From contig JACPHL010000052.1 in the NCBI GenBank assembly GCA_016188625.1, positions 1 to 5,881 on the forward strand: a stretch of DNA of 5,881 nt, in the 5' to 3' direction. Shown here one piece after another: positions 1,239 through 5,863 of this stretch; position 1 is the stretch's first letter; each line of letters begins with the position of its first letter. Origin of the DNA: Candidatus Rokuibacteriota bacterium. Lineage in GTDB: Bacteria > Methylomirabilota > Methylomirabilia > Rokubacteriales > JACPHL01. Below the pieces are notes generated by a model. It was not told the DNA's origin and ran no database searches. It saw nothing but the letters and a program-made list of their open reading frames with translations. A program made the translations under genes and the position numbers.

Positions 1239-2285
1239 TCAGGGGACGACCTGGATCCCGCCGAGCGGGTCCTCTTCCACGATCTCGCCGATCAGGGCCG
1301 CCTCGGCGAGCCCGCGGGCGTGGAGGGCCGCCAGGAGCGCCTCGCCGCGGGGAGTGGCGATGAGGAGCCCGCCCGAGGTCTGGGCGTCCGCCAGGACGGT
1401 CCGGGTCGTCTCGTCGATCCCGGGGTCCCACTGGACCACCCCCCGGACGGCCCGGGCGTTGCGCTTCGTCCCGCCGGGGACGAACCCGGCCGCGGCCAGC
1501 TCGCGGACCTCGAGGAAGACGGGGACCTGCCCCGCCCGGATCCGGGCCCGGACCTTGGAGGCCGCGGTCACCTCGCGCAGGTGGCCGAGGAGGCCGAAGC
1601 CGGTCACGTCGGTGACCGCGTGGGCCCCCACCTCGGCGGTGGCCTCGGCGGCGTCGCGGTTCAGCGCCGCCATGGTCCGGGTCGCGGCCTCGACGGCGCG
1701 CGGCGGGGCCGCGCCCTTCTTGATCGCCGTGGAGATGATCCCGGTCCCGATCGGCTTGGTCAGGACGAGCCGGTCCCCCACCCGCGCCCCCACGTTCTTC
1801 CAGACCCGGTCGGGGTGGACGAGCCCCACTACCGCGTAGCCGATCTTGGGCTCCTGGTCGTCGATGGTGTGGCCGCCGACCACGCTCACCCCGGCTTCCT
1901 GTCCCTTCTCGGCGCCGCCCCGCAGGATCTCCCCGAGGAGCGCCAGGGGGAGCCGATCGCGGGGGAAGCCGACGATGGAGAGCATCGCCACCGGCCGCCC
2001 CCCCATCGCGTAGACATCCGAGAGGGAGTTGGCCGCGGCTATCTGGCCGAAGGCGTAGGGGTCGTCCACGATGGGGGTGAAGTAGTCCACCGTAAGGACG
2101 AGCGCCAGCTCGTCGCTCAGGCGGTAGACGGCCGCGTCGTCCGCGGTCTCGGTCCCCACCAGGACGTTGGGGTCCGCGACGGGCGGGAGCCCGCGCAGCA
2201 CCTGGGCCAGGTCCTCCGGACCCAGCTTGCAGGCTCAGCCGGCGCCGTGGCTCAGCGTGGTCAGCCGAACGGTCTCGGTCTCCAT
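1239..2285 (-). CDS. selD: Selenide, water dikinase SelD, selenocysteine-containing
   Basis: SelD makes selenophosphate from selenide and ATP, the selenium donor for selenocysteine and for 2-selenouridine in tRNA. The protein is 348 residues if the in-frame TGA at 2237-2235 is read as Sec. The N-terminus from ATG 2285 reads METETVRLTTLSHGAG-U-ACK, placing U17, C19 and K20 exactly on Cys17, Cys19 and Lys20 of E. coli SelD. Downstream the family residues are present: ADDAAVY (D49/D50), VDYFTPIVDDP with D67, NSLSDVYAMGG with D90, VVGGHTIDD (135-143), TDVTGFGLLGH with D226, and SGGLLIATP near the C-terminus. Without recoding, the first usable start is GTG 2201, which deletes the catalytic loop. 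An in-frame ATG also exists at 2294 (adding MDA); 2285 is preferred because it matches family numbering. No Shine-Dalgarno sequence is evident. The brkB-like stop is 15 nt upstream, so translational coupling or a leaderless message is possible. Function is very secure and Sec is strongly supported by position. Confidence 0.95.
2202..2237 (-). promoter_or_regulatory. UGA Sec codon and candidate bacterial SECIS hairpin in selD
   Basis: The Sec TGA occupies 2237-2235. Downstream on the minus strand, GGTCC (2222-2218) pairs with GGACC (2214-2210) around a GGA loop (2217-2215). CTGG (2225-2222) can pair with CCAG (2205-2202) as an outer stem in an alternative register. The apical loop begins 18 nt after the UGA and starts with G. 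This agrees with bacterial SECIS elements, which lie inside the coding sequence just 3' of the UGA, carry a G near the start of the loop, and are bound by SelB. The fold was derived by hand and not energy-scored. Confidence 0.75.
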
Positions 2286-2292
2286 GGCATCC

Positions 2293-2298
2293 ATTATA
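2293..2298 (-). promoter_or_regulatory. Possible -10 box just before selD
   Basis: A perfect TATAAT on the minus strand lies between the stop of the membrane-protein gene (2301) and the selD ATG at 2285. Transcription would begin about 7 nt downstream, at or next to the A of that ATG, giving a leaderless message. No -35 match is found 16-18 nt upstream; a TTGACG sits directly against the box, which is not a usable spacing. The call rests on one hexamer in otherwise GC-rich sequence. Confidence 0.25.
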
Positions 2299-2300
2299 CG

Positions 2301-3128
2301 TCAAGCCGGCTCTCCGCGCGCCGCCTCGAGGGCCCGGATCAGCGCGGCCCCGAGGACGAAGACGACGGCGGAGTAGTAGATCCACATGAACAGGGCCACC
2401 AGCACCCCGAGCGACCCATAGATCTCGCTGTAGACCCCCAGGCTCAGGATGTACCAGCGGAAGAGCTGCTTGGCCAGCTCCCAGAGGACGGCCGTGAGGA
2501 ACCCGGAGATCAGGACGAACCGCCAGGGGGGGCGCCGGGCCGGGACGTAGCGGTAGAGCAGGCAGAACATCGGGGTGTCGAGAACGACCACCAGCCCCAG
2601 CTCGGCCCATTCGAGGACCGCGCCCAGGGTCTCGGCCTGCCGGAGGAAGAGGAGGAAGGCCTTCATCCAGGCGAAGACCGCCGTCGCCGCCATGGAGAGG
2701 AAGAAGAGGAGGGTGATGAGGAGGAGCATCCAGAGGTCGAAGGCCACGCCGTGCAGGAACCCCCGCCCCTTCGGGATGCCGAGGATTCGGTTCAGGACCA
2801 GGCGGAGGGCGGCGAAGAGCTGGCTGGCGAAGAGGAGGAAGATCCCGGTCCCGAGCAGCCCGGTGACGCGCCGGGCCCGGACGACCTGGAGGAGGACCTC
2901 CTCGAGCTCGACCCGGTAGACGGGGAGGTGCTCGGTGAGCTGGGCGACCACGTCCTCGACCGCCCGCTCATCCGTGAGGAGGAAGCCCGCGGCCGCCACC
3001 AGGAGGAAGGCCAGGGGGACGACGCAGATGATGACGTAGAAGGAGATCCCGGCGGCGAGGAAGAACCCCTCCGCCCGGTAGAACCCGCTCAGGGTCCCGC
3101 GGAGGACGCGGGCCAGGGCGGCCATCAT
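2301..3128 (-). CDS. YihY/BrkB-family inner-membrane protein
   Basis: This 275-residue polytopic protein belongs to the YihY/BrkB (formerly 'ribonuclease BN' or 'virulence factor BrkB') family, whose molecular function is not settled. Hydrophobic segments are at about 24-50, 90-112, 130-152, 172-192, 203-223 and 238-263, giving the six helices typical of the family. Family features include the N-terminal AAGISFYVIICVVPL segment, LNRILGIPKGRGF after helix 2, YRYVPARRPPWRF before helix 5, and the C-terminal signature YGSLGVLVALFMWIYYSA. Length is normal. The start is one of two adjacent ATGs (3128 or 3125). No Shine-Dalgarno sequence precedes them; instead a stable hairpin fills the 37-nt gap from the upstream SDR gene. 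Its stop is 15 nt before the selD ATG, so co-transcription with selD is likely, though a functional link is not known. Confidence 0.9.
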   Translation of the reverse strand: MMAALARVLRGTLSGFYRAEGFFLAAGISFYVIICVVPLAFLLVAAAGFLLTDERAVEDVVAQLTEHLPVYRVELEEVLLQVVRARRVTGLLGTGIFLLFASQLFAALRLVLNRILGIPKGRGFLHGVAFDLWMLLLITLLFFLSMAATAVFAWMKAFLLFLRQAETLGAVLEWAELGLVVVLDTPMFCLLYRYVPARRPPWRFVLISGFLTAVLWELAKQLFRWYILSLGVYSEIYGSLGVLVALFMWIYYSAVVFVLGAALIRALEAARGEPA

Positions 3129-5498: not shown

Positions 5499-5519
5499 AC
5501 CGCCAAGGTATGACCCGAA

Positions 5520-5524
5520 AGGAG
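5520..5524 (+). promoter_or_regulatory. Ribosome-binding site fixing the nucleotidyltransferase start
   Basis: AGGAG sits 6 nt before the ATG at 5531 and lies downstream of the in-frame ATG at 5510. It therefore supports 5531 over the longer reading, which would add MTRKELT and has no comparable site close to it. Confidence 0.7.
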
Positions 5525-5530
5525 CTGACC

Positions 5531-5863
5531 ATGGAAACTGAGCTGCTCGAGCGCGATCCCAAGCTGGCCGAGATCGTGCGGCGGCTGGTCCGCGCATACC
5601 AGCCCGAGCGCATCTACCTGTTCGGCTCCGTCGCCCGCGGCGAGGGCGGGCCCGACAGCGACTACGACCTGCTCGTGGTGGTTCCGGACGACGCGCCGCC
5701 GGAACGGAAGGACAGCAAGCTGGCCTACCGGGTCCTGTGGGGCACCGGGACGGCCGCGGACGTGATCGTCTGGGAAAAGACACGCTTTGAGCGGCGGACC
5801 CGCGTGGTCTGCTCCTTGCCCGGGACCGTGCTTCGCGAGGGCAAGTTGCTCTATTGCGCATGA
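5531..5863 (+). CDS. Minimal nucleotidyltransferase, MntA-type antitoxin of an MNT/HEPN pair
   Basis: This 110-residue stand-alone nucleotidyltransferase-fold protein has the catalytic motif LFGSVARGEGGPDSDYDLLV. Gly32-Ser33, ten residues, then Asp44-x-Asp46 give the GSx10DxD signature of MntA proteins. A third acidic residue, Asp77 in ADVIVW, completes the expected metal triad. In characterised systems the MNT protein neutralises a HEPN ribonuclease by adding AMP to it, and the two genes are adjacent with the antitoxin often first. That arrangement fits here: the stop codon overlaps a new ATG (ATGA, 5860-5863). Length is typical. It reads opposite to the six-gene cluster and has its own Shine-Dalgarno sequence, so it is probably an independent accessory module. 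A stand-alone nucleotidyltransferase with another partner is the alternative. Confidence 0.85.
   Translation: METELLERDPKLAEIVRRLVRAYQPERIYLFGSVARGEGGPDSDYDLLVVVPDDAPPERKDSKLAYRVLWGTGTAADVIVWEKTRFERRTRVVCSLPGTVLREGKLLYCA

Follow-up and report, generated by a model that had tools for sequence, protein, structure and literature searches.

A predicted selenocysteine-containing selenophosphate synthetase in an uncultured Rokubacteria-like bacterium

The selD locus and its relatives

The window, which is the whole 5,881-nucleotide stretch of DNA that was analysed, contains a minus-strand gene for selenophosphate synthetase (SelD) with a TGA codon inside its reading frame. The features that matter here are as follows:

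1239–2285, minus strand: selD, selenophosphate synthetase of 348 aa with predicted Sec17 (translation, profile and domain matches, structure alignment)
2235–2237, minus strand: TGA predicted to be read as selenocysteine, at the catalytic position (Cys17 of E. coli SelD; translation, alignment, codon survey)
2200–2234, minus strand: putative bSECIS hairpin, with a core 9-bp stem (2226-2206) and the apical loop GGA 17 nt after the UGA
2292–2294, minus strand: alternative in-frame ATG start of selD, three codons 5' of ATG 2285
2301–3128, minus strand: gene of a yihY/BrkB-family membrane protein, directly upstream of selD

Read with TGA as U, the minus-strand frame from 2285 to 1242 encodes 348 residues; its only TGA is codon 17 (U17, 2237-2235), and a stop codon follows at 1241-1239. 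Standard ORF calling without recoding yields only GTG 2201 to 1239 (320 aa), and the sequence-only reading was right to treat this GTG as the apparent start. Its choice of ATG 2285 as the true start is possible, but the in-frame ATG at 2294 is equally so; the Sec residue would then be number 17 or 20, respectively.

The identity of the recoded protein was examined by profile, domain and structure searches. It matches TIGR00476 over its full length with 401.9 bits (curated cut-off 125) and NF002098 with 375.1 bits (cut-off 299), and both the AIRS and the AIRS_C domains were found in it. The best solved structure is E. coli SelD (3u0o), which aligns over nearly the whole length (E 3e-79, 269.7 bits). 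The recoded N-terminus, METETVRLTTLSHGAGUACK, runs against the E. coli protein without a gap through the active-site loop HGAG-U-A-C-K, so that U17 and K20 pair with Cys17 and Lys20. The catalytic placement of the in-frame UGA, first proposed from the letters alone, is thus borne out. By its profile scores and by Sec17 followed by Lys20, the window protein is a predicted selenide, water dikinase.

The surroundings of the gene are partly shared with its relatives. In L014, L015 and L043, too, selD is immediately preceded by a yihY gene, and the SDR gene downstream of selD also occurs in L014. Closest to the window's SelD are L014 (76% identity) and L015 (71%). Among named relatives the nearest is L043 (71%), a Candidatus Rokuibacteriota assembly that shares sequence with L015 and is therefore probably the same species. 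A tree built from 46 SelD proteins places the window's SelD with that of genome G003 (100/96) and then with that of G002 (100/97), both genomes of its own order. Family f2 of this order (L140-L142) falls in another well-supported clade than the family of the window (L013-L015), which suggests that selD was transferred or replaced within the order. Elsewhere in the window, a small nucleotidyltransferase at 5510-5863 (plus strand) shows a weak similarity, short of the cut-off, to the MntA antitoxin of type VII toxin-antitoxin systems; a partner may be encoded past the end of the contig.

Conservation of the UGA codon

The codon at the Sec17 site was surveyed in 109 SelD loci that cover it, the window's own included, with the motif located by tblastn. 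It is TGA in 56 loci, TGC in 45, TGT in 8 and nothing else in any. This is the comparison with Cys- and Sec-type SelD that the sequence-only reading had called for. A search of 195 related genomes, the window's own included, gave a SelD match in 139, and the 30 loci drawn from the best of these matches all carry TGA. Exactly one TGA is present in all but 12 of the SelD matches; among the 12 exceptions, several are incomplete or belong to long, fusion-length frames. In the window's lineage, almost every sampled SelD gene carries the TGA. An in-frame UGA that aligns with Cys in homologues and is kept as UGA in relatives is the pattern expected of a bacterial selenoprotein gene, and the window selD follows it.

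A TGA is one base away from both TGC and TGT, and errors do occur in metagenome-assembled genomes, so a sequencing error in an intact Cys codon, or a nonsense mutation that has broken selD, might be considered. Across the ten codons 5' of the TGA, the window differs from L014 by four synonymous and from L015 by six synonymous substitutions, with no nonsynonymous difference in either comparison. Because the TGA recurs at exactly this codon in independent genomes from the window's order and class, and because the codons upstream of it evolve synonymously, mutation or error is strongly disfavoured and has almost no probability left. The earlier statement that this is recoding and not a nonsense mutation agrees with all 109 loci. 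It might also be supposed that translation simply begins at GTG 2201, where the frame is open and where a standard gene caller places the start. The resulting protein would be without the catalytic loop and Lys20, and the 28 codons upstream of this GTG are conserved as protein in relatives, so that such a shortened SelD is extremely improbable. Recoding of the UGA as selenocysteine is the reading that we retain.

Two genomes contain a Cys-type SelD together with a separate Sec-SelD, namely G085 (C155:8787-9788 and C258:563-1603; L144, L145) and G139 (L143). The Cys-type SelD is part of a long frame (about 750-770 aa, the size of a fusion) and could represent the known NADH-dehydrogenase-like fusion.

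Selenocysteine machinery, other selenoproteins and the hairpin

The genome of the window (G000) comprises 344 contigs and is 84% complete and 2% contaminated. SelA, SelB and tRNA-Sec, which had been predicted for the organism, are all encoded on one 6.9-kb contig, C273:

C273 1401-1494: tRNA-Sec, anticodon TCA
C273 2978-4345: selA
C273 4374-6254: selB

The bacterial machinery for making a selenoprotein is thus present. Only one SelD was detected in G000, and a search for ybbB (selenouridine synthase) did not find it there; Sec is therefore the only use of selenophosphate detected in this genome.

Further genes of the same genome carry a TGA at a catalytic site:

C131, C130, C39, C256, C36 (two), C285 and C264 (L160-L166): eight AhpC-TSA/peroxiredoxin-like genes with an in-frame TGA
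C88:3887-4048, C110:4321-4479 and C217:3574-3720 (L167-L169): three AhpD-like (CMD) genes with TGA

The first set represents 8 of 20 AhpC-TSA matches, each with one TGA that is always at the catalytic position. Three show a peroxiredoxin-type motif (e.g., FYVLDWTPGUT) and five a U-x-x-C motif (e.g., FYRGKWUPYC). Among the CMD matches, 3 of 5 contain TGA in a C-x-x-U context (e.g., NRCHYU). Of these 11 genes, all but two have a hairpin in agreement with the bSECIS model as well. Together with SelD, G000 would hold at least 12 predicted selenoproteins, and the expectation that standard annotation truncates others besides SelD has been confirmed at these sites.

Other candidates did not extend the list. 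A Sec-type formate dehydrogenase was sought among 14 molybdopterin-domain matches, none of which carries TGA; the match on C58 breaks off with its contig, short of the site. The U-H-G-P pattern gave six matches, none within a formate-dehydrogenase-like frame. No TGA was found in 4 FlpD and 8 thioredoxin matches, and a rough search of the molybdopterin and selA/selB contigs for long frames interrupted by TGA returned only noise from high-GC shadow frames. Two molybdopterin oxidoreductase matches (C222:1342-2561 and C305:4185-5403) are each split over two frames, without TGA, which probably reflects frameshifts from assembly or sequencing.

The same genes bear on whether UGA is an ordinary sense codon in this organism, for example for Trp or Gly. 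The codon does sit in frame inside a gene. Against this, G000 has a full Sec system with a tRNA-Sec(TCA), the yihY gene upstream of selD terminates in TGA (2303-2301, in the same frame as selD), TGA falls only at catalytic Cys positions in the selD, peroxiredoxin-like and AhpD-like genes, and it is absent from the molybdopterin-domain, FlpD and thioredoxin matches. General reassignment of UGA therefore has a negligible chance of being correct, and its decoding as selenocysteine stays the preferred account.

In the published bSECIS model, a small apical loop lies 16-37 nt from the UGA and has a G in either of its first two positions (PMC13188914). The putative hairpin of the window fits this description, with its loop GGA at 17 nt and its 9-bp stem. 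The 38 nt from the UGA fold with -20.6 kcal/mol (z -2.19 against shuffles); the hairpin is strong, yet by itself only about 2 sd from shuffles. All 61 distinct TGA selD genes have a model-fitting hairpin with a stem of at least 5 bp (codon-shuffle mean 21.9, maximum 38), and 56 of them have one whose stem reaches 7 bp or more (mean 4.0, maximum 10); the sequences are related, so these counts, like those for the Cys-type genes, are not independent. The 56 Cys-type selD genes gave 31 at 5 bp or more (mean 22.2, maximum 31) and 4 at 7 bp or more (mean 4.5), and stems of at least 6 bp are no commoner in them than in shuffles. The contrast between TGA and Cys genes of the same SelD family is clear. 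The two groups were told apart by the model-based test but not by a fixed 4-bp stem at positions 15-27. An Rfam scan of 2100-2330 produced only sub-threshold chance matches, the best of them to CRISPR-repeat models.

The position of the hairpin varies. Most TGA selD genes have their loop 32-33 nt downstream of the UGA, but it is at 17 nt in the window and 20 nt in L014, and the window retains the family-wide 32-33 nt hairpin only in degraded form. It is conceivable, although we rather doubt it, that G000 and its relative G003 form a small group in which the selD hairpin was displaced relative to the UGA, from a distance of 32-33 nt to one of 17-20 nt; this would be a selenoprotein-rich lineage whose sole detected SelD is a selenoprotein, with a Sec system of strict self-dependence and a shifted signal.

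A predicted selenoprotein that would prepare its own selenium

The frame, the position and conservation of the UGA, the machinery, the other predicted selenoproteins and the excess of hairpins were all computed here, and in our view the window gene almost certainly encodes a Sec-containing SelD whose UGA at 2237-2235 is decoded through SelB, Sec-tRNA-Sec and the hairpin. We infer that SelB carrying Sec-tRNA-Sec would be guided by the hairpin just 3' of the UGA to insert Sec, so that the full-length enzyme is made with its selenol in a flexible N-terminal loop. There, Sec17 would have a catalytic role, helping to convert selenide and ATP into selenophosphate. SelA would then use the selenophosphate to make Sec-tRNA-Sec, which would serve SelD itself and at least 11 other predicted selenoproteins.

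Compared with the Sec-containing bacterial SelD proteins of TIGR00476, the fold family, the UGA codon and the Sec position in the HGAG-U-x-C-K loop are the same, and the downstream hairpin, selA, selB and selC are present alike. Nothing essential differs, except that the window hairpin lies at 17 nt and not at the 32-33 nt commoner in the relatives examined. From E. coli SelD (3u0o) the protein is distinguished at the active site by Sec17 in place of Cys17. Bacterial Sec-SelD genes are common and well documented, and the window selD adds one more: they rank second in size among the prokaryotic selenoprotein families (PMC13188914), 38 were reported among bacterial selenoproteins by Zhang et al. 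in 2006 (PMC1794560), and Sec was found in 19% of reference-prokaryote SelD genes, always at the same position, by Mariotti et al. in 2015 (PMC4561486). A literature search turned up no paper dedicated to selenoproteins in Rokubacteria.

The enzyme would depend on itself, provided that no Cys-type SelD exists, and G000 is a fragmented assembly, 84% complete, from which such a second SelD could be missing. Any Sec-SelD-only system restarting from zero might do so, for example, by rare Cys insertion or by readthrough at the UGA. The self-dependence suggested by the sequence-only reading is real in logic, but it is common to every organism with Sec-SelD only and not special to this locus; SelD as a single, self-supporting selenoprotein had already been discussed by Zhang et al. 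(PMC1794560).

The biology of Sec-SelD as such is already known. For annotation, standard gene calling truncates selD and would likewise break eleven further genes of G000, eight of them peroxiredoxin-like and three AhpD-like, which points to a rich and probably mostly unannotated selenoproteome in the lineage. This agrees with a Methylomirabilota assembly of 63 predicted selenoproteins from a recent report, as cited in PMC13188914. There is strong support for the prediction that, in this uncultured Rokubacteria-like bacterium, the enzyme that readies selenium for selenoprotein synthesis is a selenoprotein too.
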